Of a stretch of DNA of 41,452 nucleotides, positions 1,767-16,065 are shown piece after piece. The first letter of the stretch is position 1. Every line of letters starts with the position of its first letter. The notes beneath the pieces are model-generated. The model was not told where the DNA came from, did no database searches, and saw only the letters and a list, made by a program, of their open reading frames with translations. Where the stretch lies: positions 122,366-163,817 of the forward strand of contig DYFK01000006.1 in NCBI GenBank assembly GCA_020725265.1, in the 5' to 3' direction. Source of the DNA: Hydrogenophilus sp. (GTDB taxonomy: Bacteria > Pseudomonadota > Gammaproteobacteria > Burkholderiales > Thiobacillaceae). The translations under genes and the position numbers were made by a program.

Positions 1767-1802
1767 GAACGAATATCGACAACCTCCGCGCGCGAGATTG
1801 TG

Positions 1803-1824
1803 GCCCCTTCGGGGGCTTTTTTTT
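1803..1824 (+). terminator. Rho-independent terminator after the lipoprotein gene
   Basis: Perfect 5-bp stem GCCCC/GGGGC around a TTCG tetraloop (1803-1816), followed by eight T residues (1817-1824). It ends the lipoprotein transcript, and it argues against starting the next gene at the in-frame ATG at 1800, which lies inside it. Confidence 0.85.
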
Positions 1825-1904
1825 GCCCGGGCGTCGCGTGCGTTGCCGCTTGCGCGGGGCGTCCAGTACCATCCCGGGTTCCGTTGAAACTTGGTTGCGG
1901 TACC

Positions 1905-3134
1905 GTGGAAGCCCAGCACATCCCCCTTTCCGCCATTGGCAGGAACCCGCGCGACGAAGTCGCGGATGCCGCGCCAGCGCATGGTGGCGACCGCCTGCCG
2001 GTCATCGAGGTTCTGGCCGAAATCGCCAGCAGCATGAGTTCGGACGCCAATACCGAGCAGATGCTGATGCGCTTCCTGGAGATCATGGTGCGCATTTCCA
2101 ACGCCAAGGCCGGCGCGGTGCGCGTGCTCACCGCCGATGGCGCGCACATGCGCATGGTCGGCTCGATCGGCCTGAGTCCGGCGCTGGTGGAAAAGGAGCG
2201 CTACGTGCCGCTCGAGTGCGGTATCTGCGGCAAGGCGACGCTGACCCACGCGACCCAGAACGACAGCGTCATGGAGGTTTGCCAGAAACAGGTGCGCCAC
2301 ATCTATTTCGCCCAGCGCTGCCATACCGTCTACGCGGTGCCACTGCGCCACAAGGGCAAGGTGATGGGCGTCTACAACATGTTCATGGACAACCCGGAGC
2401 CGCTGCCGGAGGACATCCGCTACCTGTTCAACTCGATCAGCGAGCACCTCGGCATGGCGCTGGAGAATTCCCGGCTGACCCGCGAGAACATGCGTATCTC
2501 GCTGATGAACGAGCGCACCATGCTGGCCAACCAGATCCACGATTCCCTGGCGCAGACCCTGGCCTACGCCAAGATGCGACTGAGCGTGCTCAACGAAGCG
2601 TTCGCCGATGACGATCGCGAGCGTGCCAACCGGTATCTGGGCGAGGTCGAGGAAGCCGTGGACATGGCCTACTCGGAGCTGCGTAACCTGATCACCCAGT
2701 TCCGCGACCGCATCGATCCGCGCGGCCTGGTGCCGGCGCTCCAGGAGATGGCCGAGAGTTTCAGCAAGAAGGCCAACGCCGACGTCGACTTTCTCAACGT
2801 CGCCCAGGACGTGGTGCTGACGCCGGAAGAGGAAATCCAGGTCTTCCACATCATCCAGGAATCGCTCTACAACATCTGCAAGCACGCGCGCGCGCGCCAT
2901 GTCGTCGTCACCCTCGACCTGCACGAGAACGAATACGTGGTCAATGTCGCCGACGACGGCGTCGGCCTGCTCGGCAGCGCGCTGTCCAACATGGGCAAGA
3001 GCTTCGGCCTGACCATCATGCGCGAGCGCGCGGCCAAGCTGGGCGGGCGGCTGACCATCGAAAGCCGGCCGGCCGGCGGCACCATCGTGCGCCTGAGCTT
3101 CCCGGCGCGGTCCGGTCTGGAGGTACAGTCGTGA
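1905..3134 (+). CDS. Soluble GAF-domain sensor histidine kinase (NarX/NarQ family)
   Basis: About 409 aa from GTG 1905; TTG 1884 is an alternative and ATG 2034 would cut into the GAF domain. Residues about 35-190 form a GAF domain. Residues about 200-270 are a HisKA_3 dimerisation domain with the phospho-acceptor in ANQIHDSLAQTL (His212). The C-terminus is an HATPase with an N box (IIQESLYNICKHA) and DDGVGL. There is no signal or membrane segment, so it senses something in the cytoplasm. The GAF domain has four cysteines, C105-x2-C108-x17-C126-x12-C139, a plausible redox, Fe-S or sulfur-sensing site (inference). The stop overlaps the start of the response regulator (GTGA), as in NarXL-type operons. 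The signal it senses is not shown by the sequence. Confidence 0.85.
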   Translation: MEAQHIPLSAIGRNPRDEVADAAPAHGGDRLPVIEVLAEIASSMSSDANTEQMLMRFLEIMVRISNAKAGAVRVLTADGAHMRMVGSIGLSPALVEKERYVPLECGICGKATLTHATQNDSVMEVCQKQVRHIYFAQRCHTVYAVPLRHKGKVMGVYNMFMDNPEPLPEDIRYLFNSISEHLGMALENSRLTRENMRISLMNERTMLANQIHDSLAQTLAYAKMRLSVLNEAFADDDRERANRYLGEVEEAVDMAYSELRNLITQFRDRIDPRGLVPALQEMAESFSKKANADVDFLNVAQDVVLTPEEEIQVFHIIQESLYNICKHARARHVVVTLDLHENEYVVNVADDGVGLLGSALSNMGKSFGLTIMRERAAKLGGRLTIESRPAGGTIVRLSFPARSGLEVQS

Positions 3135-3799
3135 GCCGGCTGTCCGTCATCCTGGTCGATGACCACACGCTGTTCCGCAAGGGACTCGCCGAGCTCCTGG
3201 AAAGCCAGGGCGCGGTCAACGTCGCCGCGATCACCGGCGATCCGACCGAGGTCGCCGGTCTGCTACGCGAGCACCGGCCGGATGTACTGTTGCTTGACCT
3301 CAACATCGGCGGCATCGATGGCATCCAGGTCATGCAGGGATTGCGCGCCCAGGGTTTCGACCTGCCGGTGCTGCTGCTCACCGTCAGCGAGGCCGAGGAG
3401 GACATGGCCCGGGCGCTGCGCAATGGCGCCAACGGCTATCTGCTGAAAAGCATGGAGCCGGATGAGCTGGTCGACGCCATCCTGCGCGCCGCGCGCGGCG
3501 AGACCGTGGTGGCGCCGGCGATGACCGCCAAGCTGGTGCGCATGCTCGACGGCAAGAACACCAGCGCCACTTCGCTGCTGGAATCGCTGACCCAGCGTGA
3601 GCGGGAAATCCTTGCCCACCTGGCGCGCGGCGAGAGCAACAAGGCGATCGCCCGCCAGCTCGACATCAGTTACGACACGGTCAAGCTGCACGTGCGCCAT
3701 ATCCTCGCCAAGCTCAACCTGTCATCACGGGTGGAGGCGGCGGTGTTCGCGGTCGAAAACAAGCTGACGCCGGGCTTCGACGTCGGTCGCAAGAGCTGA
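3131..3799 (+). CDS. NarL/FixJ-family response regulator
   Basis: 222 aa. An N-terminal receiver domain has the acidic pocket VDD (residues 9-11), phospho-acceptor Asp56 (LLLDLNIGG) and the conserved Lys in GYLLKS. A C-terminal LuxR-type helix-turn-helix follows (LTQREREILAHLARGES, then SNKAIARQLDISYDTVKLH). The GTG start lies within the kinase stop codon and has GGAGG at 3118-3123, so the two genes are translationally coupled. Family members bind short TAC-type heptamers. Such motifs occur upstream of dsrA (9413-9464), which makes dsr control a testable idea, not a demonstrated one. Confidence 0.9.
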   Translation: MSRLSVILVDDHTLFRKGLAELLESQGAVNVAAITGDPTEVAGLLREHRPDVLLLDLNIGGIDGIQVMQGLRAQGFDLPVLLLTVSEAEEDMARALRNGANGYLLKSMEPDELVDAILRAARGETVVAPAMTAKLVRMLDGKNTSATSLLESLTQREREILAHLARGESNKAIARQLDISYDTVKLHVRHILAKLNLSSRVEAAVFAVENKLTPGFDVGRKS

Positions 3800-5396: not shown

Positions 5397-5553
5397 GATC
5401 CGGTCCTCCCGATTCCTTGTTTATCAACGAGCGCCGACATCCTCGAAGCGGGGATGGGCACCGTCAACGGGGTGGAGGGATGAACGGAACGGACAGGGGC
5501 GGGACTGGTCGCGGAGCCAGGCCGTCGGTCGGCCGCGCCGCCCGCTGGGGCGT

Positions 5554-6486
5554 TCAGACGCCGCGCAGGTCGCGCAGCGGATCGTGATAGCGGGCGCGGT
5601 AGAGCAGACGGCGGTGCCCGGGGGTGTCGGAGAAGCCGGCGCGGGTGTGCAGTACGTTGTTGCAGATCAGGCCCATGCCGGGTTGCAGGCGCAACGTGAA
5701 ACGGCCGAAGGCGGGTGCCGCCAACAGATCGTCGAGCGCCTGTAGCGCGGCCTGCGTGGCGGCATCGGCTTTCCAGGCGATGCTCTTGGTGCGCGCGGTG
5801 TAGCGCAGGTGCAGACGGCCGTTTTCCACCAGCAGCGCCGGTCCGGTCTCGTCGCCGCGCGCGGTGCCCTGTTCGTCGACACGCGCCGGAATGGTCATGG
5901 CATCCGCCGCCAGCAGCGCGCGGATGTGCGCCGGATCGGCATCGCGCAACGCGATGTAGGCGAGTTCGTGGTCCATCAGGTCGTTTTCGCCGCCCGTTTC
6001 AGCCTGCCGCACGCAATGCAGGGTCATCGCCAGGATGCGGCGCTCGGGCGGGTTGTAGTAGCCGTCGGTATGCCAGCGGATGCGATGGTGGGTGTAGGGA
6101 ATGTAGTCGCCACGTTTGCCGGGATCCTGGCCGGCCGGACGCGCGGCCGGATCGCTGGTGTCGTCGTCGCGCGGGGTCAGGCTGGAGATGCCGTCCTCGT
6201 CGGCCAACCAGTTGGCGTCCAGACGTTCCAGCCCGAACTGGCGGGAAAGCGCGCGCACCGCCGGCTTGTCCTCGTTCTCGCCGAGACGGGTGGCGTAGAT
6301 CGCCATGTTGGTCTTGGCGATGCGTTGCCAGATCGCCTCGTATTCGGCGGCGGTCAGCCGATGCGGATCGGCGACCTCGACGATCAGATCCTCACCCCGC
6401 CCCGGATAACCGGCGAGCTTGGCCGCGCGCCAGGCCCGGTAGCCGGATTCGTTGTCGGGGTGGAAGGGAGAGTCGGGTGGGATCAT
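5554..6486 (-). CDS. TauD/TfdA-family Fe(II)/2-oxoglutarate dioxygenase
   Basis: 310 aa from ATG 6486 (MIPPDSPFHPDN). An in-frame ATG at 6534 would overlap the neighbouring gene and add a poor leader. The iron-binding facial triad is visible as H-x-D in RWHTDGYYN and a distal His in NNVLHTRAGF. The 2-oxoglutarate-binding Arg is in RRLLYRARY. Family enzymes hydroxylate sulfonates, sulfate esters, aryloxyacids or amino acids; the substrate here cannot be read. It is the last gene of the minus-strand sulfur-linked block. The start codon is preceded by CCCCACT heptamer repeats instead of a ribosome site. Confidence 0.85.
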   Translation of the reverse strand: MIPPDSPFHPDNESGYRAWRAAKLAGYPGRGEDLIVEVADPHRLTAAEYEAIWQRIAKTNMAIYATRLGENEDKPAVRALSRQFGLERLDANWLADEDGISSLTPRDDDTSDPAARPAGQDPGKRGDYIPYTHHRIRWHTDGYYNPPERRILAMTLHCVRQAETGGENDLMDHELAYIALRDADPAHIRALLAADAMTIPARVDEQGTARGDETGPALLVENGRLHLRYTARTKSIAWKADAATQAALQALDDLLAAPAFGRFTLRLQPGMGLICNNVLHTRAGFSDTPGHRRLLYRARYHDPLRDLRGV

Positions 6487-6487
6487 G

Positions 6488-6558
6488 GTGGGGAGTGGGG
6501 AGTGGATGCCGTGACCGGTTTTATTCCTTGCCACTCGCCACTTGCGACTTACGATCTC
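6488..6558. repeat. Heptad-periodic bipartite repeat (copy 1)
   Basis: Left arm 6488-6505 is GGGGAGT-type (two and a half units, the complement of CCCCACT). Right arm 6531-6558 reads CCACTCG, CCACTTG, CGACTTA, CGATCTC, four 7-bp units. GTGGGGAGTGG in the left arm is nearly the inverse of CCACTCGCCAC in the right arm. The left arm directly precedes the dioxygenase start. The right arm codes the C-terminus (about KSQVASGKE) of the 199-aa protein. Confidence 0.6.
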
Positions 6559-7120
6559 CCGGATAAAACCCGTCCATGTTCTTCTTGACCATGCCCATCG
6601 CTTCCGGCACCTCGATGTCCATGAGTTGATCCTGGATCCAGGTCTGGTCGGATTCCAGCATGTCTTCCCGAATCATCAGGCTCAGGTAGCGCAGGGCCTG
6701 GAAGCTGGCCTTGTCCTCCGGAAACTCGAACTCGGAATAGTCGACCATGCGCTGGTTGAGGCGGTCGATGTAGGCCTGCTGGTAGTCGTAGTCCGGGTCG
6801 CGCTCGCCGCCGGTGAAGTCGAGCACGTTCTGTTCCATGATTTCGGCCAGACGCACGCCGAGGGCGCTGACCAGATCCTGGCGCTTGTCGTCATCCATGC
6901 GCTCGAACGCCAGGCGGTCGACGTAATGCACCAGGAAACTGGTCAGTTCGGCGATGATCTTGAAGCCGCGTTGCGGGGTGACAATGTCGAAATTGGCCTT
7001 GGACAGGTTGTCGACGGCCTTGTCGGCCAGTCGCCAGATGGTCGAGGCGAGCACGGTGGCGACCTCGTCGGCGGGACGCTCGCCTTCCTTCTTGAACCAG
7101 ACGGTCTTGACGCGCAGCAT
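6521..7120 (-). CDS. Conserved-looking hypothetical protein, 199 aa
   Basis: MLRVKTVWFKKEGERPADEV opens a mainly helical, acidic soluble protein with no signal peptide, no membrane segment and no cysteine. Segments such as ASTIWRLADKAVDNLSK, KIIAELTSFLVHYVDRLAFERM and LVSALGVRLAEIMEQNVLDF are amphipathic helices. The ATG has GGAGAA upstream and lies 6 bp after the rhodanese stop, so the two are surely co-transcribed. The last nine residues are coded within a heptad repeat, suggesting that the repeat altered the 3' end. I do not recognise the family. Its place between a rhodanese and a dioxygenase suggests a sulfur-related role, by context only. Confidence 0.8.
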   Translation of the reverse strand: MLRVKTVWFKKEGERPADEVATVLASTIWRLADKAVDNLSKANFDIVTPQRGFKIIAELTSFLVHYVDRLAFERMDDDKRQDLVSALGVRLAEIMEQNVLDFTGGERDPDYDYQQAYIDRLNQRMVDYSEFEFPEDKASFQALRYLSLMIREDMLESDQTWIQDQLMDIEVPEAMGMVKKNMDGFYPGDRKSQVASGKE

Positions 7121-7126
7121 GGCTGT

Positions 7127-7975
7127 TCATTCTCCAGTCGCGACCGGTCGGGACGGGTCGCGGATCCACTCGCTCCAGGAGCCCGGATACAGGCGAGAGC
7201 CAGGCAGTCCGGCGATTTCCATGGCGAGCAGGTTGTGACAGGCGGTGACGCCGGAACCGCAGGAATGGATGACCCGCCAGGGCGGACGCCCCTTGAGCAG
7301 GGCCTGGAAATTCTCGCGCAAGGCTTCCGGTGGCATGAACGTGCCGTCGATGTCGATGTTTTCCTCGAACGACCAGTTGATCGAGCCGGGGATGTGGCCG
7401 GCGACCGGGTCGAGCGGTTCGAACTCACCGGTGAAGCGACGTTCCGGGCGGGCGTCGATGATCAGGAAATCGCCGTTGGCCGAGGCGCGCAGCACGTCAT
7501 CGGCATCGACGATCTGGCTGGGTTCGGGCAGGCAGGCGCAATTGCCCTTGCGCGGTTCCGGAAGATCGGCGGTGACCGGGCGCATTTCACGCGCCCATTT
7601 CGGGTAACCGCCATCGAGCAGGGCGACACCGGGGTGGCCGAGCCAGCGCAACATCCACCACATGCGCACGGCCATGGCGCCGTAGCTGTCGTCGTAGACC
7701 ACGACCTGCTTGTTGACGCCGACGCCCCAGGCGCAGAGCTTCTCGGCGAATCCGCCGGGGTCGGGTAGCGGATGACGGCCGCTGGATTCGGTGACTGGCG
7801 CGGACAGATCGTCGTCGAGATGGACGTAACGCGCGCCGGGGATGTGATTCCTCAGATAGGCCTGGCGGCCGGCGTCGGGGTCGGTCAGCGTGAAGCGGCA
7901 ATCGAATACGACCCAGTTGGGGTCGTCCAGATGCTGGGCCAGATCTTCGGTGGTGACGAGGGTGTTGGTGAACAT
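7127..7975 (-). CDS. Sulfurtransferase, tandem rhodanese (SseA / 3-mercaptopyruvate type)
   Basis: 282 aa with two rhodanese domains. The N-terminal one (residues about 5-130) is the inactive structural copy (FDCRF, GARYVHLDDDLS, DGGYPKW). The C-terminal one has the active-site loop HSCGSGVTACH with Cys239, and the CGSGVTA form is typical of SseA-like 3-mercaptopyruvate sulfurtransferases. It moves sulfane sulfur to thiols and, beside dsr, may feed the DsrE/TusA/DsrC relay (inference). No clear ribosome site precedes the ATG. An 11-bp hairpin separates it from the upstream dsrC-like gene. Confidence 0.9.
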   Translation of the reverse strand: MFTNTLVTTEDLAQHLDDPNWVVFDCRFTLTDPDAGRQAYLRNHIPGARYVHLDDDLSAPVTESSGRHPLPDPGGFAEKLCAWGVGVNKQVVVYDDSYGAMAVRMWWMLRWLGHPGVALLDGGYPKWAREMRPVTADLPEPRKGNCACLPEPSQIVDADDVLRASANGDFLIIDARPERRFTGEFEPLDPVAGHIPGSINWSFEENIDIDGTFMPPEALRENFQALLKGRPPWRVIHSCGSGVTACHNLLAMEIAGLPGSRLYPGSWSEWIRDPSRPVATGE

Positions 7976-7996
7976 GGATGTCAGTGCGTGCCCAAA

Positions 7997-8052
7997 GCGG
8001 AGAGCCGAGCGCCGGGAGTCATTCCCGGCGCTCTACTCTTTACTCTCGACCG
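7997..8052. repeat. Heptad-periodic bipartite repeat with 11-bp central hairpin (copy 2)
   Basis: Left arm (GCGGAGAGCCGAGCG, 7997-8011) matches the left arm of the repeat after dsrC (GTGGAGAGTCGAGCG) at 13 of 15 positions. Right arm 8032-8052 reads TCTACTC, TTTACTC, TCGACCG. The centre is a perfect hairpin, GAGCGCCGGGA (8007-8017) and TCCCGGCGCTC (8023-8033) with a 5-nt loop. It lies directly 3' of the dsrC-like gene. It lacks a T-run in the minus direction, so it is more likely a processing or stability element than a full terminator. Confidence 0.65.
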
Positions 8053-8056
8053 CCGC

Positions 8057-8389
8057 TCAGTAGCCGCCCTTGCCGAACGGCTTGGGCAAACCGGCGACCT
8101 TGGCCGACTGACGGTTGGGCTGCAAGGGGAACAGCTCATACAGGACTTTTTTCCAGTCGACGCTGTCATCCTCGTCGGTGAGCATGGCCACCATGTTGCG
8201 GAAGTTGGGGGTGTGACCGTCTTCCTGATAGCGCTCACGCATGAAGCGGACGACCTGCCAGTGCTGATCGGTCAGGGTGATGCCCTCGGCCTCGGCGATG
8301 ATGGGCACGATGTCGTCGCTGAAATTGGGTTCGACCAGAAAGTTCTCGTCGTCGACTTCCAGTTCCTCACCGTTCAAAACGTATCCCAC
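8057..8389 (-). CDS. DsrC/TusE/RspA-superfamily protein lacking both redox cysteines
   Basis: 110 aa, clearly homologous to the DsrC encoded at 13263 (shared HWxVVxFxRExY, YELFP and the C-terminal KxAGLPKP). The flexible C-terminal arm reads QSAKVAGLPKPFGKGGY, whereas DsrC reads QACKIAGLPKPTGCI. The upstream Cys is Ala, and the penultimate Cys is replaced by Lys at the aligned position, in a tail three residues longer. It therefore cannot form the DsrC trisulfide or disulfide. Cys-less members of this superfamily have been proposed to act as regulators (RspA). AGGAGAG precedes the ATG. It lies between the Cas6-like and rhodanese genes. Confidence 0.88.
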   Translation of the reverse strand: MGYVLNGEELEVDDENFLVEPNFSDDIVPIIAEAEGITLTDQHWQVVRFMRERYQEDGHTPNFRNMVAMLTDEDDSVDWKKVLYELFPLQPNRQSAKVAGLPKPFGKGGY

Positions 8390-8436
8390 GGTTCTCTCCT
8401 ATTACACACGGGTTGCAAAATATTCCCAGACGGCGT

Positions 8437-9090
8437 TCAGCCGATGGGCACTTCCTTGATCGATTTGTGCGGTATGAAGATGCCGCATCCATAGCCGCGA
8501 TGCAGTCCCAGCCCGATTTCCTGGAGGGTCAGCGACTGCATCAGGCTGACATCGTGCAGCATCAGGCTGTAACCGCCAATTACCCCATTAGGGGTGTGCA
8601 TTTCTCGGCGCTTGCCCGGGATCATGCCAGCCTGGATGCCGAGCTCGTCGAGACGACGGCTGGCCTCGTCCAGAAAGGCGGCCTCCTCGACCGGGCCGAG
8701 CACGACGAAATGCGAATACAGCGTGGCATATGGCGTCAGCGTTTTTTCTTTCAAGGCGCCGATGCCGAGTGGGCCGGCGCCCGGATCGATGGTCTTGCCG
8801 ACCAGTTCGCCAGCGGCCTCCAGGCGATCGACCGGCAGGCGCAGAACCAGCTTGACCCGGCGATTGATGACCAGATTGGCATTGCGGCCGCTGGGCGCGC
8901 CATGCACGGGATGAATGCCGGCTTCCGGGATTTCGCGCAACCAGGGCAGGAGTCGGGCGATTTCCTCATGGAGCGCGGCGCCATGGTCGGCCGGGATTTC
9001 CATGCCGACCAGGTCGAACTGCAAATCCTTGACCTTCGCGGTGTAATCGAAATCCTTGATGGCTTCCCATTCCGGGTTGTACATGCGCAT
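8437..9090 (-). CDS. Cas6/Cmx6-family RAMP protein (orphan, no CRISPR array)
   Basis: 217 aa. The pattern matches what I know of the type I-MYXAN Cas6/Cmx6 family: an N-terminal VGMEIPADHG with a candidate catalytic His36, then GIHPVHG, LVLRLPVDRL and LVGKTID. TPYATLYSHFVV and FLDEASRRLDELGI follow, then SLTLQEIGLG. Near the C-terminus lies the Gly-rich loop GLGLHRGYGCGIFIP (Gly193-Gly203) that binds RNA in Cas6 proteins. Cas6 enzymes cut CRISPR precursor RNA at repeat hairpins. No array or other cas gene is visible here, so a CRISPR role is doubtful. GGAGAG precedes the ATG, which follows the small upstream gene by 3 bp. Possible RNA target: dsr hairpins (inference). Confidence 0.72.
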   Translation of the reverse strand: MRMYNPEWEAIKDFDYTAKVKDLQFDLVGMEIPADHGAALHEEIARLLPWLREIPEAGIHPVHGAPSGRNANLVINRRVKLVLRLPVDRLEAAGELVGKTIDPGAGPLGIGALKEKTLTPYATLYSHFVVLGPVEEAAFLDEASRRLDELGIQAGMIPGKRREMHTPNGVIGGYSLMLHDVSLMQSLTLQEIGLGLHRGYGCGIFIPHKSIKEVPIG

Positions 9091-9093
9091 GGA

Positions 9094-9336
9094 TCAGCTC
9101 TCCTCCGTATCCGGACCGGGATTCAGGGGCGAGGCCCATTTCAGCATCTCCTCCGCCCAGTATTTCGCGGTCACCGGATCGACATCGAAAATGGTGAAGC
9201 GGGCACCGCGTTCGCGGATGCGCAATCGCAACATTGGCGTGCCGCCGGCTTCGTACCGGACATCCTGCAATTCGATTTCCTGGTTGCCGAAAGGATTGCG
9301 GAATTTCGCGATGGCGGTGATCTGGTCCATAATCAT
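9094..9336 (-). CDS. Small hypothetical protein, 80 aa, first gene of the divergent block
   Basis: MIMDQITAIAKFRNPFGNQEIELQDVRYE opens a short soluble protein without cysteines. It looks like mixed beta strands (IELQDVRY, PMLRLRIRERGARFTIFDVD) ending in a helix (PVTAKYWAEEMLKWAS). ATG 9336 or 9330 may be the start; neither has a strong ribosome site. It ends 3 bp before the Cas6-like gene, so the two are likely coupled. I do not recognise the family. Its fixed spacing to the RAMP gene makes it a candidate partner. Confidence 0.7.
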   Translation of the reverse strand: MIMDQITAIAKFRNPFGNQEIELQDVRYEAGGTPMLRLRIRERGARFTIFDVDPVTAKYWAEEMLKWASPLNPGPDTEES

Positions 9337-9607
9337 CAGAATTTCTGGATGTGCTTATTGTCTGACATTTTCACTCAGGTATAAGCGCGGCGGTATGGGT
9401 TCGTGCGGGACCTACCCGATCGGGTAGGTGTCAGGTTACCCGAGCGAAATACCCGGTTACCCCTTCGGAATGATGGTGGCCCCGATAAGCGCTCCCTAAT
9501 ATGGGCGCACTCGTTCCGCCTGGGGTATCGGCCGGCGGAAAGGTGCTGTGAGTAGTGGCAACACCTCGTACGTACACTGTGGTTCAAGACTTCAAGGAGA
9601 AAGACAG
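9337..9607. promoter_or_regulatory. Divergent control region between the RAMP/DsrC-like block and dsrA
   Basis: This 271-bp region is the longest non-coding stretch in the window. It holds a 20-bp palindrome (9410-9429), further TACCCG-like motifs to 9464, two GGTTACCC direct repeats 21 bp apart (9434 and 9455), and a candidate -10 box TAATAT at 9497-9502 for dsrA, without a convincing -35. An AT-rich stretch near 9340-9385 could hold the minus-strand promoter. The dsrA ribosome site AAGGAGAAA lies at 9594-9602. Confidence 0.6.
9410..9429. promoter_or_regulatory. Perfect 20-bp palindrome, candidate operator
   Basis: ACCTACCCGATCGGGTAGGT is its own reverse complement over all 20 bases. It has no loop, so it looks like a protein-binding dyad rather than an RNA hairpin. 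Half-site TACCCGA (9413-9419) recurs at 9437-9443 and in related form at 9450 (TACCCGG) and 9458 (TACCCCT). Confidence 0.65.
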
Positions 9608-10915
9608 ATGGCTAAGCAAATGATCAATACGCCGAACCTGGATGAGCTGGAATCCGGTCCGTGGCCTTCCTTCGTGACCGGCCTGAAGCGTCTGGCCAAG
9701 GACAACGACATGATGGTCGACCTGATGGGCCAGCTGGAAACCTCCTACGAGACCAAATTCGGTTACTGGAAGGGTGGTACCGTCGGCGTGGTTGGTTATG
9801 GCGGCGGCGTGATCCCGCGCTTTACCGAACTGAAGGATGAAAACGGCAAGCCGAAATTCCCCGAGGCCGCCGAGTTCCACACCCTGCGCATCCAGCCGCC
9901 GGCCGGCATGCACTACACCTCCGACCTGCTGCGCCAGATGTGCGACGCCTGGTTGGAGACCGGCGGTTCCGGCCTGATCGCCTTCCATGGCCAGTCTGGC
10001 GACATCATGTTCCAGGGCATCAAGACCGAGGACGTCCAGCGTTCCTTCGACAAGTTCAATGAAATGGGCTTCGACCTCGGTGGCGCCGGTCCCGCGCTGC
10101 GCACCTCGATGTCCTGCGTCGGTGCCGCCCGTTGCGAAATGTCCTGCTATGACGAGGCCCGCGCCCTGCGCACCGTCATCAACAACAACCTGGACGACAT
10201 GCATCGTCCGTCGCTGCCGTACAAGTTCAAGTTCAAGTTCTCCGGCTGTCCGAACGACTGCGTCAACGCCATCCAGCGTTCCGACATGGCCACCATCGGT
10301 ACCTGGCGCGACAACATCCGCGTCAATGAGGGCCAGGTTCGCGAGTACTACAACGCCAAGGGCATGAACACCCTGGTCAACGACGTCATCAGCAAGTGCC
10401 CGAGCAAGGCGATCACGCTGGAGTCCGCCGCCAAGGTCGACAAGTCGAACGCCGGCCTGTCGGTGGCCGATCTGGGCGACGGCAACGCCATGTGCATCGA
10501 CAACAAGAACTGCGTGCGCTGCATGCACTGCCTGAACGTCATCCCGGGTGGTCTGCTGCCTGGCAAGGACAAGGGCGTCACCATCCTGGTCGGCGGCAAG
10601 GGCGTGCTGAAGATTGGCGCGACCATGGGTACCGTGGTGATCCCGTTCATGAAGATGGAGTCCGACGAGGATTTCGAGAAGCTGAACGATCTGGCCCGCA
10701 ACATCCTGGACTTCTTCGCCGAGAACGCGCTGGAGCACGAGCGCACCGGCGAGATGATCGAGCGTATCGGTCTGGTCAACTTCCTCGAAGGTCTGGATAT
10801 CGAGGTCGACCCCAACATGATCGTGCATCCGCGTACCAACCCGTACGTCCGCACCGACGGTTGGGATGAAGAAGCCGAGAAGTGGTTCGAGCGCAAGCAG
10901 GCCGCCGCCGCCTGA
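9608..10915 (+). CDS. dsrA: Reverse-type dissimilatory sulfite reductase, alpha subunit
   Basis: 435 aa from ATG 9608, with AAGGAGAAA just upstream; an in-frame GTG at 9548 has no support. DsrA carries siroheme (amide) coupled to a [4Fe-4S] cluster. The ligand pattern C170-x5-C176 (SCVGAARC) and C214-x3-C218 (SGCPNDC) is intact. A ferredoxin-like insert has C264, C302, C305 and C308 (NCVRCMHC). In sulfur oxidizers the cytoplasmic alpha2beta2 enzyme runs backward, oxidizing DsrC-bound sulfur to sulfite. It is the first gene of the operon. A 14-bp hairpin follows its stop. Confidence 0.98.
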   Translation: MAKQMINTPNLDELESGPWPSFVTGLKRLAKDNDMMVDLMGQLETSYETKFGYWKGGTVGVVGYGGGVIPRFTELKDENGKPKFPEAAEFHTLRIQPPAGMHYTSDLLRQMCDAWLETGGSGLIAFHGQSGDIMFQGIKTEDVQRSFDKFNEMGFDLGGAGPALRTSMSCVGAARCEMSCYDEARALRTVINNNLDDMHRPSLPYKFKFKFSGCPNDCVNAIQRSDMATIGTWRDNIRVNEGQVREYYNAKGMNTLVNDVISKCPSKAITLESAAKVDKSNAGLSVADLGDGNAMCIDNKNCVRCMHCLNVIPGGLLPGKDKGVTILVGGKGVLKIGATMGTVVIPFMKMESDEDFEKLNDLARNILDFFAENALEHERTGEMIERIGLVNFLEGLDIEVDPNMIVHPRTNPYVRTDGWDEEAEKWFERKQAAAA

Positions 10916-10925
10916 GTCGAGTGTT

Positions 10926-10956
10926 CCGCCTTGCCGCCATTCTGGTGGCGAGGCGG
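10926..10956 (+). other. Intercistronic hairpin between dsrA and dsrB
   Basis: Arms 10926-10939 (CCGCCTTGCCGCCA) and 10943-10956 (TGGTGGCGAGGCGG) pair over 14 bp with two G-U pairs and a 3-nt loop. There is no T-run, so it looks like an mRNA stability or processing element, not a terminator. Confidence 0.7.
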
Positions 10957-10994
10957 GGATAACAAGTTTCCGATTTCACTAGTTGGAGAGAAGT

Positions 10995-12068
10995 ATGGCT
11001 GAAAGGACTCACGAAACCATCGAATCCGGCGCGCCGGACCCGATGCCCTACATGCACCCCGTGATGAAGAAAAATTACGGCAAGTGGAATTTCCACTCGC
11101 ACCCGAAGCCGGGCGTGCTTTATCACCGCGCCGAAAGCGGTGACGAGATCTGGACCGTCAAGGCCGGCACCCAGCGTCAGATGGACCACTACACCGTGCG
11201 CAAGCTGGCCGATCTGGCCGATCAGTTCGCCGATGGCTACGTTCGCTTCACGACCCGTTCCAACATCGAATACATGGTGACCGACCAAGCCAAGGTGGAG
11301 CCCCTGATCAAGGCGCTCACCGACAATGGCTTCCCGGTTGGAGGCACCGCCAACTCGGTGTCCATGGTTGCCCACACCCAAGGCTGGCTGCACTGCGACA
11401 TCCCCGGCACCGACGCCTCCGGCGTGGTCAAGGCGCTGATGGATGACCTGTATCACGACTTCGTCAACTGTGAGATGCCGAATCGCGTGAAGCTGTCGAC
11501 CTCCTGCTGCGAAATCAACTGCGGCGGTCAGGCTGATATCGCCATCATCGTCCAGCACACCAAGCCGCCGAAGATCAACCACGATCTGGTCGCCAACGTC
11601 TGTGAGCGTCCCTCCGTCGTCGCCCGTTGCCCGGTCGCGGCCATCCGTCCCGCCCTGGTCAATGGCAAGCCTTCCCTGGAAGTCGACGAGAAGAAGTGCA
11701 TCTGCTGTGGCGCCTGCTTCCCGCCGTGCCCGCCGATGCAGATCAACGATCCCGAGCATTCCAAGATCGCGATCTGGGTGGGTGGCAAGAACTCCAATGC
11801 CCGTTCCCGTCCGACCTTCCACAAGCTGGTCGCGGCCGGCCTGCCCAACAACGCACCGCGTTGGCCTGAAGTCGGCGCCGTGGTCAAGACCATCCTCGAG
11901 GCCTACAAGGCCGATGGTCGTCCGTGGGAGCGCATGAACGACTGGATCGACCGGATCGGTTGGCCCGCGTTCTTCGAGAAGACCGGTTTGCCGTTCACCA
12001 AGTATCACATTGATAACTGGCGCGGTGGCCGCAACAGCTTGAACGCTTCGGCGCACATCCGCTTCTGA
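10995..12068 (+). CDS. dsrB: Reverse-type dissimilatory sulfite reductase, beta subunit
   Basis: 357 aa from ATG 10995, preceded by GGAGAG at 10985-10990. Partner of DsrA. It shows the DsrB form of the cluster motif (STSCCEINCGG and later ARCPVAA) and a ferredoxin-like domain (KKCICCGACFPPCPPM). In characterised DsrAB the beta subunit binds the catalytic siroheme at the subunit interface and the C-terminal arm of DsrC enters the cleft. The 78-bp gap to dsrA contains a strong hairpin, as does the gap to dsrE. Confidence 0.98.
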   Translation: MAERTHETIESGAPDPMPYMHPVMKKNYGKWNFHSHPKPGVLYHRAESGDEIWTVKAGTQRQMDHYTVRKLADLADQFADGYVRFTTRSNIEYMVTDQAKVEPLIKALTDNGFPVGGTANSVSMVAHTQGWLHCDIPGTDASGVVKALMDDLYHDFVNCEMPNRVKLSTSCCEINCGGQADIAIIVQHTKPPKINHDLVANVCERPSVVARCPVAAIRPALVNGKPSLEVDEKKCICCGACFPPCPPMQINDPEHSKIAIWVGGKNSNARSRPTFHKLVAAGLPNNAPRWPEVGAVVKTILEAYKADGRPWERMNDWIDRIGWPAFFEKTGLPFTKYHIDNWRGGRNSLNASAHIRF

Positions 12069-12075
12069 TCGACCT

Positions 12076-12101
12076 CCGGTCCCGGTGCTCGCCGGGGCCG
12101 G
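12076..12101 (+). other. Intercistronic hairpin between dsrB and dsrE
   Basis: Arms 12076-12085 (CCGGTCCCGG) and 12092-12101 (CCGGGGCCGG) pair over 10 bp with one G-U, loop TGCTCG. No T-run follows. Probably modulates mRNA stability at the dsrAB/dsrEFH junction. Confidence 0.6.
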
Positions 12102-12135
12102 TGCCAATCGGATATTCGGAGATAGGGATACTTAA

Positions 12136-12528
12136 ATGAAAATCGGTGTATTAGTTAGCGAAGGGCCTTATACCCATCAGGCCTCGGATACCGCTTACAA
12201 CTTCGTCAAGGCCGCGCTGGACAAGGGCCACGAAATCTTTCGCGTGTTCTTCTATCACGATGGCGTCAACAACGCGACGCGCTTGACCGAGCCGCCGCGC
12301 GACGACCGCAATATCGTCAATCGTTGGAGTGAGCTCGCCAAGGAGCACAAGCTCGATCTGGTGGTGTGCATCGCCGCCGCCCAGCGTCGCGGCATCATGG
12401 ATGAGAACGAAGCCAAGCGTCAGGGCAAGGATGCTCACAACATCGCCGAGGGCTTCCGCATTTCCGGCCTGGGTCAGTTGGTCGAGGCCGGCATCCAGTG
12501 CGATCGTCTCGTGACTTTTGGTGATTGA
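12136..12528 (+). CDS. dsrE: Sulfur-carrier protein DsrE
   Basis: 130 aa, the same length as the Allochromatium vinosum protein. It has a DsrE/F-fold core and the active Cys78 in LVVCIAAAQRRG, the residue that accepts sulfane sulfur, and forms a cytoplasmic E2F2H2 hexamer that hands sulfur from TusA to DsrC. The start ATG 12136 has GGAG and AGGGA further upstream. dsrE, dsrF and dsrH follow each other at 10-12 bp spacing. Presence of dsrEFH is the mark of a sulfur-oxidizing, not sulfate-reducing, Dsr system. Confidence 0.97.
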   Translation: MKIGVLVSEGPYTHQASDTAYNFVKAALDKGHEIFRVFFYHDGVNNATRLTEPPRDDRNIVNRWSELAKEHKLDLVVCIAAAQRRGIMDENEAKRQGKDAHNIAEGFRISGLGQLVEAGIQCDRLVTFGD

Positions 12529-12538
12529 GGGAAAAGCG

Positions 12539-12928
12539 ATGAGCGACGAAATGATGGAAGAAGATGGCGTCATCAAGAAGTTCATGTTCGTGAACCGCAA
12601 GGCGCCCTATGGCACGATCTATGCGCTGGAAGGCCTGGAGGTCGTGCTGATTTCCGCCGCCTTCGAGCAGGATGTCAGTCTCGCGTTTGTGGACGATGGC
12701 GTCTTCGAGCTGAAGAAAGGCCAGGACACCAAGGCGCTCGGCCAGAAGAATTTCTCGCCGACCTACCGCGCGCTGGAAGGTTACGACATCGAGAAGCTGT
12801 ACGTGGAACGCGAGTCCATGGAGGCGCGTGGACTGAGCGAGGAAGACCTGCTGGTCGACGTCCAGGTCGTTTCCGCCGCCGAGATGGCTGATCTCATGGC
12901 CGAGCAAGATGTCGTGATCAGCTTCTGA
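12539..12928 (+). CDS. dsrF: Sulfur relay protein DsrF
   Basis: 129 aa from ATG 12539, preceded by GAGGGAAAAG. Second subunit of the DsrEFH hexamer, homologous to TusC. The sequence KKFMFVNRKAPYGTIYALEGLEVVLISAAFEQDV is typical of the family. It contains no cysteine, in line with a structural role beside DsrE and DsrH. An in-frame GTG at 12518 lies inside dsrE and has no ribosome site. Confidence 0.96.
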   Translation: MSDEMMEEDGVIKKFMFVNRKAPYGTIYALEGLEVVLISAAFEQDVSLAFVDDGVFELKKGQDTKALGQKNFSPTYRALEGYDIEKLYVERESMEARGLSEEDLLVDVQVVSAAEMADLMAEQDVVISF

Positions 12929-12940
12929 GGGAGAAGAGCA

Positions 12941-13240
12941 ATGTTGCACATCGTCAATAAATCGCCGTTCGAACGGAACTCGCTGGAGAGTTGCCTGCGT
13001 CTGGCGAAACAAGGCTCCGCGGTTCTGCTGATCGAGGACGGCGTCTATGGCGCCGCCCAGGGCAGCAGCGTGGAGGCGAAAGTCCAAGGCGCCATGGCCA
13101 ATGTCAAGGTTTATGCCCTGGACGCCGATCTCCAGGCGCGTGGCATGGCCAACAAGGTGTTGGATGGTGTCACGGTCGTCGATTACGGCGGTTTTGTGGA
13201 TCTGGTCGCTGAACACAGCAATCTCCAGTCCTGGTTGTAA
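12941..13240 (+). CDS. dsrH: Sulfur relay protein DsrH
   Basis: 99 aa, TusB/DsrH family: MLHIVNKSPFERNSLESCLRL carries the single conserved Cys18, and AVLLIEDGVYGA is the second signature. It completes the DsrEFH complex that passes sulfur to DsrC. GAGGGAGAAG precedes the ATG, 12 bp after dsrF. Confidence 0.96.
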   Translation: MLHIVNKSPFERNSLESCLRLAKQGSAVLLIEDGVYGAAQGSSVEAKVQGAMANVKVYALDADLQARGMANKVLDGVTVVDYGGFVDLVAEHSNLQSWL

Positions 13241-13262
13241 TTTTTCTTGAAGGAGTAACGCT

Positions 13263-13598
13263 ATGCCCATGGTTGAAGTTGCCGGTAAAACTTTCGAGGT
13301 CGACGAAGAGGGCTACCTGACCAATCTGGCTGATTGGAACATGGATGTCGCCGGTTATTTGGCCGCCGAGGAAAAGGTCGAGATGACCGACTCTCACTGG
13401 GAAGTGGTCAATTTCCTGCGCGAGTACTACGACGAGTACCAGATCGCCCCCGCCGTTCGCGTGCTGACCAAGGCGATCGCCAAGAAGCTGGGCGCCGACA
13501 AGGGTAACAACAAGTACCTGTACGAGTTGTTCCCCTACGGTCCCGCCAAGCAGGCCTGCAAGATCGCTGGTCTGCCCAAGCCGACCGGTTGCATCTGA
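13263..13598 (+). CDS. dsrC: Sulfur-carrier protein DsrC
   Basis: 111 aa with both C-terminal redox cysteines, Cys99 (QACKIAGLP) and the penultimate Cys110 (PTGCI). DsrC carries persulfide from DsrEFH to DsrAB. Its trisulfide or disulfide form is the substrate of the DsrK catalytic subunit. The ribosome site is AAGGAG at 13250-13255. A TTCG hairpin and then an intrinsic terminator follow, consistent with the high and partly separate expression known for dsrC in other species. A cysteine-less paralogue is encoded at 8057-8389. Confidence 0.98.
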   Translation: MPMVEVAGKTFEVDEEGYLTNLADWNMDVAGYLAAEEKVEMTDSHWEVVNFLREYYDEYQIAPAVRVLTKAIAKKLGADKGNNKYLYELFPYGPAKQACKIAGLPKPTGCI

Positions 13599-13611
13599 TA
13601 TCGCGGTATCG

Positions 13612-13627
13612 GCCCGGTTCGCCGGGC
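13612..13627 (+). other. TTCG hairpin after dsrC
   Basis: GCCCGG-TTCG-CCGGGC, a perfect 6-bp stem with a stable tetraloop 13 bp after the dsrC stop and no T-run. Likely a 3' stabiliser for dsrC mRNA upstream of the terminator. Confidence 0.65.
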
Positions 13628-13654
13628 TGATCTCTCGGCTGTTACATCATGGCC

Positions 13655-13729
13655 GGGAGTGGAGAGTCGAGCGTGAAAACCTCGGCCCGGGGTTTTTTTA
13701 CCTCAAGATCGACTCTCCACTCTCGACTC
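13655..13729. repeat. Heptad-periodic bipartite repeat enclosing a terminator (copy 3)
   Basis: Left arm reads GGGAGTG, GAGAGTC, GAGCGTG (13655-13675). Right arm reads TCGACTC, TCCACTC, TCGACTC (13709-13729). Bases 13657-13670 and 13709-13722 are a 14-bp perfect inverted repeat. The centre is the terminator at 13676-13699. Left-arm sequence is close to that of the repeat at 7997. Confidence 0.65.
13676..13699 (+). terminator. Intrinsic terminator between dsrC and dsrM
   Basis: Arms 13676-13683 and 13689-13696 (AAAACC paired with GGTTTT, plus a T-G and a C-G pair) enclose a 5-nt loop, and the T-run continues to 13699. Because dsrM has no other obvious promoter, it is probably leaky, lowering expression of the membrane complex relative to dsrABEFHC. 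Confidence 0.7.
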
Positions 13730-13748
13730 GCTGTTGCAAGAGGAACGG

Positions 13749-14486
13749 ATGACTTCGCTGACTGTTCTATACACGGCTATTTACTATTTCGCCGCGATCG
13801 TTTTCATCGCGGGCGTGGCCTATCGGATTTATGAGTACAGCCGCACACCGGCCCCACTGGTGATCCCGACCACGCCGGCGCCGACCAGCAACAGTGGTGT
13901 TGCTCTACGCATGGCGCGCGAAGTCGTCCTGTTTGAATCACTGTTCAAATCCAATAAATGGATATGGGTGTTCGGCTGGCTTTTTCATGTCGGACTGGCG
14001 CTGGTGCTGTTGCGGCATTTTCGCTATTTCCAGGAGCCGGTCTGGTTCTGGGTCGAGTTCATCCAGCCGTTCGGCAAGTACGCGAGCTTCGCCATGGTCG
14101 CGGGCCTGGCAGGCCTGTGGGCACGACGCTTCCTGGTTGATCGTGTTCGTTACATCTCGACACCGTCCGACCACCTGATGCTCGCGCTGCTGATTGGTAT
14201 CGGCATGTCCGGCATGATGATCACCTTCGTCGCGCATACCGACATCGTCGCGCTCAAGGCGTTCACTCTCGGCCTGATGACCTTCGACTGGCATCCCGTG
14301 CCGGCCGATCCGATCCTGCTGATCCATCTGGCGCTGGTCGCGTTGCTGATGATCATCTTCCCGGTCAGCAAGCTGCTGCACGCGCCCGGCATCTTCTTCA
14401 GTCCGACCCGCAACCAGAAGGACAACCCGCGCGAGACCCGTCACATCGCGCCATGGGCGTCCGCCATGGAACGCGACAAGGCCTGA
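13749..14486 (+). CDS. dsrM: Membrane cytochrome b subunit DsrM
   Basis: 245 aa from ATG 13749 with AGAGGAAC upstream. NarI-like integral membrane protein with about five to six hydrophobic helices. Histidines within helices (FHVGLALVLLRHF, TPSDHLMLALL, LIHLALVALL, SKLLHAPG) are candidate ligands for two b hemes. In DsrMKJOP it links quinone to the cytoplasmic subunit DsrK. First gene after the dsrC terminator. Confidence 0.95.
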   Translation: MTSLTVLYTAIYYFAAIVFIAGVAYRIYEYSRTPAPLVIPTTPAPTSNSGVALRMAREVVLFESLFKSNKWIWVFGWLFHVGLALVLLRHFRYFQEPVWFWVEFIQPFGKYASFAMVAGLAGLWARRFLVDRVRYISTPSDHLMLALLIGIGMSGMMITFVAHTDIVALKAFTLGLMTFDWHPVPADPILLIHLALVALLMIIFPVSKLLHAPGIFFSPTRNQKDNPRETRHIAPWASAMERDKA

Positions 14487-14541
14487 TCGCCGAACGTACC
14501 GACAACCCGTTGTGAACGCATAAGAGAGTCAAGGAGCCAAC

Positions 14542-16065
14542 GTGGCAGCCGCCGAGTTCGAAGTCCCCACGCTGACGGATTACACCGACGTCCCCAAAAT
14601 CCAGGAAGGGGCGACGGCGCATGTCAAATCGTTCATCGCCCCGCAAGGTCCCCAGGAATACCTGGGATATCCCTGGGAGCTGGCCGAGAACTGGAAAGAG
14701 CGCGCCATCGACAAGATGGGCGATCTGCTGGGTAAATACCGTTCGTTGCGGGTGTTCATGGATGCCTGCGTGCACTGTGGAGCCTGCACCGACAAGTGTC
14801 ATTACTTCCTGGGCACCGCCGACCCCAACAACATGCCCGTCGCGCGTCAGGAGCTGATGCGCAAGGTCTACCGCCGCTATTTCACGTTGCCGGGCAAGAT
14901 CGCTCCGTGGCTGGTGGGCGCGGAGGATCTGACCGAGGATGTGTTGAACCAGTGGTACAGCTACTACCATCAGTGTTCCGAGTGTCGTCGCTGCTCGGTT
15001 TTCTGCCCGTACGGCATTGATACCGCCGAGATCACCATGGCTGGCCGGGAGATCCTGAACCATGTCGGCATGGGCCAGAAATACTCGAACGAGATCCTGG
15101 TCAAGGTTCAGAAGATCGGCAACAACCTCGGTCTGCCCGGTCCCGCGCTGGAGGACACCCTGGCTGGACTGGAAGAGGATATCGAGGCCGATACCGGCGT
15201 GCCGGTGAAAATGCCGCTCGATGTCGAGGGCGCGGAAATCCTGCTGGTGACGCCGTCCGCGGACTTCTTCTCGGAGCCGCACGTTGAATCCCTGATCGGC
15301 TATGCCAAGGTATTCCATGCCGCCGGTGTCTCCTGGACGCTGTCGAGCAAGGCTTCTGAAGCCGGCAACTTCGGCCTGTTCAACGGTAACTACGAGACCA
15401 TGCAAAAGGTCGCCATGCGCATTCGCGATGCCGCCCTTGAACTTGGCGTCAAGCGCATCATCGTCGGTGAATGCGGGCACGCCTGGCGGGTCGCCTACAG
15501 CTTCTGGAATACCCTGACCGGCATCGGCTATGGTGGCGGCGATCCGTTCTCGAAGAAACTTCAGGAACAACTCGATCACCGTTATCCGCAGCCGATGCAC
15601 ATCTGCGAATACACCTGGGATCTGATCGAGAAGGGCGCGCTCAAGTTCGACAAATCGTTGAACGACGACCGAGTCATCACCTTTCATGATTCCTGCAACG
15701 TGTCGCGCGGTTCCCGGATGGGCACTGAACCGGGCGGGCAGTTCACGATCCCGCGCAACATCATCAAGGCCGTGGCCAACAATTTCCACGACATGCCCGC
15801 GGAAACCATCGGTGAGTCGACCTTCTGCTGTGGCGGTGGTGGCGGTTTGCTGACCGATGACCTGATCGAGATCCGTGTCAAGGGCGCGTTGCCCAGAATG
15901 AATGCATACAACAGCGTTGCTCAGAGACAAGGCGTGAATTTCTTGGCCTTGATCTGCGCAATCTGCAAGGCCCAGTTCACCAAGGTTCTGCCGTACTACG
16001 GCTTCGACCGCAACCAGGTCGGCGGTGTGCATCAGCTGGTGAGCACCGCGATCAAGCTGGATTGA
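14542..16065 (+). CDS. dsrK: HdrD-like iron-sulfur subunit DsrK
   Basis: 507 aa from a GTG start fixed by AAGGAG at 14531-14536. Two [4Fe-4S] motifs (C76-x2-C79-x2-C82-x3-C86, and CSECRRCSVFCPYG) precede two CCG-type regions (GECGHAWR and STFCCGGGGGLLTDD) that bind the special catalytic cluster of HdrD-like proteins. DsrK faces the cytoplasm and is thought to act on the DsrC disulfide or trisulfide, passing electrons through DsrM. Confidence 0.97.
   Translation: MAAAEFEVPTLTDYTDVPKIQEGATAHVKSFIAPQGPQEYLGYPWELAENWKERAIDKMGDLLGKYRSLRVFMDACVHCGACTDKCHYFLGTADPNNMPVARQELMRKVYRRYFTLPGKIAPWLVGAEDLTEDVLNQWYSYYHQCSECRRCSVFCPYGIDTAEITMAGREILNHVGMGQKYSNEILVKVQKIGNNLGLPGPALEDTLAGLEEDIEADTGVPVKMPLDVEGAEILLVTPSADFFSEPHVESLIGYAKVFHAAGVSWTLSSKASEAGNFGLFNGNYETMQKVAMRIRDAALELGVKRIIVGECGHAWRVAYSFWNTLTGIGYGGGDPFSKKLQEQLDHRYPQPMHICEYTWDLIEKGALKFDKSLNDDRVITFHDSCNVSRGSRMGTEPGGQFTIPRNIIKAVANNFHDMPAETIGESTFCCGGGGGLLTDDLIEIRVKGALPRMNAYNSVAQRQGVNFLALICAICKAQFTKVLPYYGFDRNQVGGVHQLVSTAIKLD

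Follow-up and report, generated by a model that had tools for sequence, protein, structure and literature searches.

We propose that the 217-aa protein encoded beside the dsr operon of this Hydrogenophilus genome is a CRISPR-independent, dsr-associated Cas6, an assignment in which we have high confidence. By computation it has the Cas6 fold, shows no linkage to CRISPR, co-occurs with and is linked to dsrA, has a neighbour ending in KGGY and belongs to a set of genes under purifying selection. With roughly even confidence, we further propose that this Cas6 left CRISPR and became a stable part of the Dsr module of its class, where it would bind a specific host RNA together with the DsrC-like protein encoded next to it. 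The class is taken here as Gammaproteobacteria in the GTDB sense, from the names of the named loci, and the window is the whole 41,452-nucleotide stretch of DNA that was analysed. Its relevant features are as follows.

5554..6534, minus strand: TauD/TfdA-family dioxygenase-like protein (PF02668)
6521..7120, minus strand: 199-aa protein without a family match, a conserved neighbour (neighbour comparison)
7127..7975, minus strand: 3-mercaptopyruvate sulfurtransferase-like double rhodanese, the next operon gene after the DsrC-like gene (profile match)
8057..8389, minus strand: DsrC-like paralogue, 110 aa, GTG start, ends in GKGGY (PF04358); likely functional partner
8437..9090, minus strand: dsr-linked Cas6, 217 aa (PF09559/TIGR02807 fold; purifying selection in relatives)
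9094..9336, minus strand: DUF6967 small protein, 80 aa, first gene of the operon (PF22295)
9410..9429, no strand: perfect 20-bp palindrome ACCTACCCGATCGGGTAGGT, operator candidate, between two divergent promoter-like regions
9512..9540, plus strand: stem-loop, likely at the 5' end of the dsrA transcript; weak candidate RNA target (folding of leaders)
9608..10915, plus strand: dsrA, divergent from the Cas6 operon (open reading frame and match)
10995..12068, plus strand: dsrB (open reading frame and synteny)

The coordinates confirm the arrangement first described for this locus, with the 217-aa gene between a small gene and a DsrC paralogue, divergent from dsrA, and the 80-aa frame 3 bp upstream (gap 9091-9093). 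The 80-aa product belongs to PF22295/DUF6967 (98 bits, cut-off 27), and the window holds a reverse-acting dsr cluster (dsrABEFHCMKL...). Downstream of the Cas6 operon, at 1800-3796, lie a GAF-domain histidine kinase and a LuxR-type response regulator, in a position kept in a number of close relatives. The host genome has a second dsrA (G000:C25:26223-27482) and one Cas6 match only.

Family, fold and residues of the dsr-linked Cas6

The Cas6/Cmx6 pattern that the original prediction had recognised is borne out far above chance, as the protein scores 178.8 bits against PF09559 (cut-off 26.7) and 141.7 bits against the TIGR02807 equivalog (cut-off 98.85), and its predicted structure matches solved Cas6, giving it a Cas6 fold. 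Residues were compared in an alignment of 139 dsr-linked rows, which leaves out duplicates, rows shorter than 185 aa and one further locus (L141), retains two duplicates (window/L001 and L177/L194) and includes seven loci from genomes without a dsrA match. The C-terminal Gly-rich loop, likewise anticipated, is present, with G193, G195 and G203 in 139/139 dsr-linked rows and in all seven rows of cyanobacterial Cas6. R78, R84 and E136 are invariant in the 139 dsr-linked rows and K209 is found in 137 of them; among the seven cyanobacterial proteins R78 occurs in one, E136 in none (Pro in all seven), and H208 and K209 in none. The basic residues common to dsr-linked and CRISPR Cas6 are K80, R84 and R198. 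The dsr-linked Cas6 is a subfamily with its own invariant residues, and in the tree a branch (100/98) separates 75 dsr-linked rows from six CRISPR-linked and one unlinked cyanobacterial Cas6, with L177 placed in the gamma_dsr group though its genome (G512) has no dsrA match. The subfamily is under purifying selection, with a median dN/dS of 0.29 over 853 non-independent pairs.

His36, the candidate catalytic residue, is present in the window protein, in 111/139 dsr-linked rows and in 7/7 cyanobacterial rows. It is replaced by Asn, Ser or Tyr in the other 28 dsr-linked rows, mostly from loci named Thiobacillus or Hydrogenophilales, and Asn also occupies this position in 8fcj_B when aligned with the window protein. 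Net charge also differs between dsr-linked and cyanobacterial proteins. In 71 dsr-linked rows the median charge is -2 and the median pI 6.6 (49 rows below 7), and in another set of 30 rows the medians are -6.5 and 5.8 (29 rows below 7), whereas the seven cyanobacterial proteins are basic, with a median charge of +7 and a median pI of 9.4. We weigh the mostly acidic character of dsr-linked Cas6, against that of its basic cyanobacterial kin, as pointing to a specific RNA or a protein partner and not to broad RNA binding.

These same features bear on an alternative in which the Cas6 fold has given up RNA and now binds a protein or ligand, serving the Dsr machinery as an adaptor that would bring the KGGY DsrC-like protein, or else a sulfur carrier, into contact with DsrAB or with its regulators. 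The acidic charge, the absence of His36 from 28 rows, the new near-invariant residues (R78, E136 and H208-K209) and the steady presence of a DsrC-like neighbour would all suit such an adaptor, whereas the retention of the loop glycines in every row, of the basic residues shared with CRISPR Cas6, and of His36 in 111 rows speaks against it, and we regard the adaptor as a possible but rather doubtful explanation.

Linkage to dsrA and separation from CRISPR

A comparison of neighbourhoods across dsr-bearing genomes extends the link between Cas6 and dsr far beyond the single window in which it was noticed. Cas6 was found in 36 of 61 genomes, host included, and the gene order dsrA, DUF6967, Cas6, DsrC-like, sulfurtransferase is identical in the first 30 loci (30/30). 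Among named genomes 382 relatives were found, and the analysis used the best 80 of them, some from the same genomes as the set of 61; these best 80 comprise Thiobacillus, Sulfuricella, Sulfuriferula and Parasulfuritortus together with many metagenome bins. In the analysis as a whole several loci are represented twice, under two names. Among the best 80 a divergent dsrA is present in 79/80, DUF6967 in 80/80 and the DsrC-like gene in 79/80, the exceptions being L104, with no dsrA within its stretch, and L118, with no DsrC-like gene. The double-rhodanese sulfurtransferase gene adjoins in 30/30 of the first loci and in 79 of these best 80 of 382. One metagenome bin titled Bordetella parapertussis (L076) carries the dsr-Cas6 locus, and its name is probably wrong. 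Carriers also include a laboratory strain, Thiobacillus thioparus DSM 505 (L091).

With dsrA scored as present at E below 1e-40, a draw of 300 genomes of the order contained both genes in 58, Cas6 alone in none, dsrA alone in 6 and neither in 236 (PF09559 in 58, dsrA in 64), and a draw of 369 genomes of the class contained both in 111, each gene alone in 7 and neither in 244 (each gene in 118). Since related genomes do not count as independent rows, a Fisher test on such tables overstates the case. When Cas6 and dsrA lie on one contig they are nearly always close and, if close, divergent without exception: within 3.5 kb in 57/58 genomes of the order and within 6 kb in 82/84 of the class, a count of same-contig genomes only, with Cas6 and dsrA on different contigs in 27 further class genomes. 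One family departs from this pattern, with Cas6 and dsrA 42 kb (G435) and 518 kb (G649) apart and about 8 kb between Cas6 and the KGGY gene; in a third member (G551) the three genes lie on three different contigs. Co-occurrence and dsrA linkage of this kind within the class are what a component of the dsr pathway would show.

The association has a taxonomic boundary. In a phylum draw of 229 genomes dsrA occurs in 47 and PF09559 only in the two of this order, and none of the 45 dsrA genomes outside the class carries PF09559, so that Cas6 is a class-level trait and no requirement of reverse Dsr. PF09559 is also lacking in 6/64 dsrA genomes of the order and 7/118 of the class (13 in total, of which a few class cases may be assembly gaps). 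Reverse Dsr can therefore run without Cas6. The class draw includes five dsrA genomes of 1.0-1.1 Mb, and every one of them encodes Cas6 in an open frame of 221-226 aa, accompanied by matches to dsrA and to the TauD-like, small and KGGY genes; that genomes of this size retain it suggests that its function is needed. Alternatively, Cas6 may have arrived next to dsr on a single occasion and been a passenger ever since, contributing nothing to sulfur metabolism and possibly serving on its own in defence or RNA decay, which would fit the 45 genomes outside the class that do without it. This passive explanation is difficult to reconcile with purifying selection, with retention in the five 1.0-1.1 Mb genomes and with a DsrC-like neighbour in 28/30 class loci despite otherwise different gene order, and we consider it improbable.

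Separation from CRISPR, which had been proposed from the window alone, extends to the relatives. Scanning the window found no CRISPR-like array, and PADLOC gave only weak matches for nine other window proteins, to regulator domains and one oxidoreductase stretch, in keeping with the earlier impression that no other cas gene lies nearby. Eighteen Cas queries taken from the host genome and cyanobacterial plasmids, used at 1e-5 together with an array search, found nothing in 80/80 named loci (best 80 of 382 relatives; 4.5-16.7 kb each), while the same queries matched 8/8 CRISPR control loci. No match to the Cas queries was obtained in any of the 205 dsr or Cas6 loci tested. One of those 205, L211, a locus without Cas6, has a three-copy repeat. 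The linked array and cas3/cas8/cas7/cas5 genes that would place a type I-MYXAN equivalog within a CRISPR-Cas system were thus not found with this Cas6.

Seven class genomes carry Cas6 with no dsrA match. Six of their seven loci include a DsrC-like gene, and in one of these six a fragment of dsrA lies at the edge of the contig; the remaining locus is a contig of 3.5 kb. Since the DsrC-like gene is present at 6/7 and a Cas-query match at 0/7, we do not take these as CRISPR cases. Plasmid relatives of Cas6 number eight, all cyanobacterial, and six of the seven fetched adjoin cas3. A Gloeobacter morelensis plasmid (NZ_CP063846.1; L183 4974-5765) encodes a Cmx6-type Cas6 in a 10.6-kb stretch where neither annotation nor matching shows any cas gene, in a gene row with a PAPS-reductase family protein and a cupin protein, and is perhaps another Cas6 outside CRISPR.

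The protein might instead process crRNA in the ordinary way, acting in trans on arrays at other sites in the genome, as its match to the TIGR02807 equivalog and the presence of Cas1 in 31 of 71 Cas6-bearing genomes (picked for good assembly from 199 distinct ones) would allow. Cas1 is absent from the other 40, the gene is linked to dsrA and not to cas genes, and 58/58 Cas6 genomes of the order carry dsrA. The host genome itself has two Cas1 genes. One lies in a type I-C locus (L188) with Cas3, Cas5c, Cas8c, Cas7, Cas4 and Cas1c and an array of at least 13 repeats (L188 11477-12369), and the other in a type II locus (L189), on the window's own contig, beside a Cas9 of 1100 aa and an array of at least 10 repeats (L189 8351-8985). 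Type I-C crRNA is processed by Cas5 and type II crRNA by RNase III, so neither system needs a Cas6. An array with a matching Cas complex that relies on this Cas6 alone, the case that would have refuted the original prediction, was not found, the Cas1-bearing systems of the host being types I-C and II. Because these host systems were found, we give CRISPR service in trans almost no weight.

The DsrC-like neighbour and DUF6967

The gene downstream of Cas6 encodes a clear member of the DsrC/TusE/RspA family (PF04358). Co-occurrence of Cas6 with such a gene, expected from the window, proved general, with a DsrC-like gene no more than 1.3 kb from Cas6 in 143/147 non-cyanobacterial loci (some fetched twice). 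All 143 of these DsrC-like proteins end in KGGY where true DsrC has its last cysteine; the name RspA has been used for DsrC-like proteins that lack the cysteines. One cysteine is kept among the last 25 residues in 18/143, in 17 of them within the run GCR (ACK in the DsrC of the window). The GCR-bearing loci come from the Thiobacillus-type group (L081-L116, L140) in which Cas6 is often without His36, and the GCR cysteine and the absence of His36 may be linked. In 30 class loci a TauD-like gene is usually followed by one for a small protein (about 70 aa), in some cases by a further one (about 230 aa), and then by Cas6 and the DsrC-like gene, which is present in 28 (two on the other strand); in many class loci other than the window the TauD-like gene thus adjoins the small-protein gene and Cas6 on their upstream side.

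The KGGY protein and Cas6 are not always retained together. Six dsrA genomes of the order are without Cas6, and at the four of their dsr loci that are readable past dsrA, DUF6967 is kept (4/4) and neither Cas6 nor the KGGY protein is present, two of these genomes (G248, G306) having the KGGY protein elsewhere. As for the class dsrA genomes without Cas6, the KGGY gene lies at a contig edge in G436 and G537, so that a gap in the assembly may account for the missing Cas6; in G533 a KGGY gene occurs with no Cas6 nearby, G406 has a KAGY tail, and no KGGY-type tail was found in G397, G449 or G679. Outside the class, six dsrA genomes were examined and the KGGY protein was present without Cas6 in two (G863, G780) and absent from four. 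The KGGY proteins of these two genomes, which are without PF09559, are 63-64% identical (L233/L234) to that of L157. DsrC-like queries gave no match in ten genomes without a dsrA match at 1e-40.

The 80-aa DUF6967 protein had been suggested as the partner of Cas6. Among 27 Cas6-bearing genomes it is present in all 12 of the order and in 0/15 from the rest of the class. We therefore place it second as an obligate partner, since it is restricted to the order and stays at the four Cas6-less dsr loci, and it is a less convincing partner than the DsrC-like protein. Other class members have a gene for a protein of about 70 aa where DUF6967 would lie; a comparison of the two by hhalign (E 0.029, probability 1.7%) does not support relatedness.

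Candidate RNA targets, a model and known systems

The stem in the dsrA leader (CCGCC/GGCGG in the window) is a weak candidate for the RNA target. Its consensus energy across 35 distinct leaders was -4.5 by alifold, against shuffles near 0, with 0/100 as low; variation in the stem is mostly C-G to U-G, with few two-sided changes, and the mean single-sequence z is -1.2. Six sets of dsr intergenic sequences gave consensus energies of 0 to -1.0, their gappy alignments making this a weak test, and dsrF-dsrH is too short to fold. Rfam gave no match across 5500-14600, the leader stem included. A hairpin between the DsrC-like and sulfurtransferase genes was set aside as an RNA target, as it is not conserved in 44 other loci compared.

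The palindrome ACCTACCC-N4-GGGTAGGT at 9410-9429 was initially considered an RNA hairpin; its position upstream of the two promoter-like boxes, themselves judged by eye, led us to interpret it as an operator instead. Allowing up to 2 mismatches, it has a single match in the window and no other in the genome. In an alignment of 38 near relatives most have a version of it, with changes, at the corresponding position, some with longer arms, and most of a few more distant loci compared lack it. By its position it looks like a dsr-specific operator for the divergent promoters.

In the model that we propose, a Cas6 moved out of CRISPR and settled as a lasting component of the module with which the class oxidizes sulfur by reverse-acting Dsr. 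With its Gly-rich loop and K80, R84 and R198 kept, it would bind one particular RNA of the host, perhaps the dsrA 5' leader, and we put RNA binding as its mechanism at an even chance. The DsrC-like protein would act with Cas6 and report sulfur load, such that dsr expression would follow sulfur supply. Cleavage would be optional, being possible in the window protein, which keeps His36, and unlikely in the Thiobacillus-type and other lineages that lack it. We entertain only tentatively a stronger form of the model, in which a CRISPR RNA-processing enzyme was domesticated early among dsr-bearing class members as a core regulator of sulfur oxidation, Cas6 and the DsrC-like protein without the last cysteine forming a complex that senses sulfur and controls dsr mRNA by binding or cutting RNA. 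The original prediction, a Cas6-derived ribonuclease or RNA-binding protein recruited to sulfur metabolism, holds as to fold, separation from CRISPR and link to dsr, and is weakened in its RNA function by the acidic charge and the rows without His36. These two signs, together with the C-G to U-G variation and the modest z of the leader stem, count against RNA binding, and the dsrA genomes without PF09559 (the 45 outside the class and the 13 within the samples), the KGGY proteins without Cas6 and Cas1 in 31/71 genomes are also counted against the model.

Should the model hold, energy metabolism would have gained a Cas protein as a fixed component, and the locus would offer a handle on dsr gene control and on the role of DsrC paralogues that lack the last cysteine. 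If Cas6 is part of sulfur oxidation, then sulfur oxidizers throughout a class, down to forms with genomes of about 1 Mb, carry an unstudied component next to their key enzyme. Automatic annotation labels these genes as CRISPR, which hides them.

No link between Cas6 and dsr appears in the titles and abstract openings searched, nor in the passages available from PMC5728499, PMC10952691, PMC7540712, PMC5944118, PMC4164917, PMC8889020, PMC11267869 and PMC3368242; most subscription papers were beyond reach, so novelty in print is unproven. In the part available of one report, DsrC of A. vinosum binds DNA upstream of dsr, and an extra DsrC-like gene, THSYN_22565, is numbered next to a dsr cluster with Cas6 unmentioned in that part (PMC5944118).

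Compared with the reverse-acting dsr clusters of sulfur oxidizers, the loci described here add a divergent unit of Cas6 and DsrC-like genes that goes unnamed in the available passages on those clusters. Within the DsrC/TusE/RspA family (PF04358), the neighbour of Cas6 is a member, but one in which KGGY takes the place of the last cysteine (143/143). The closest known kin of the window protein are the Cas6/Cmx6 proteins of types I-B and I-MYXAN (TIGR02807, PF09559), including the Cas6 of a type I-B CAST (8fcj_B). Unlike these CRISPR proteins, the dsr-linked Cas6 is encoded next to dsrA with no adjoining array or cas genes, is mostly acidic, and combines invariant residues of its own with a His36 that is not universal.
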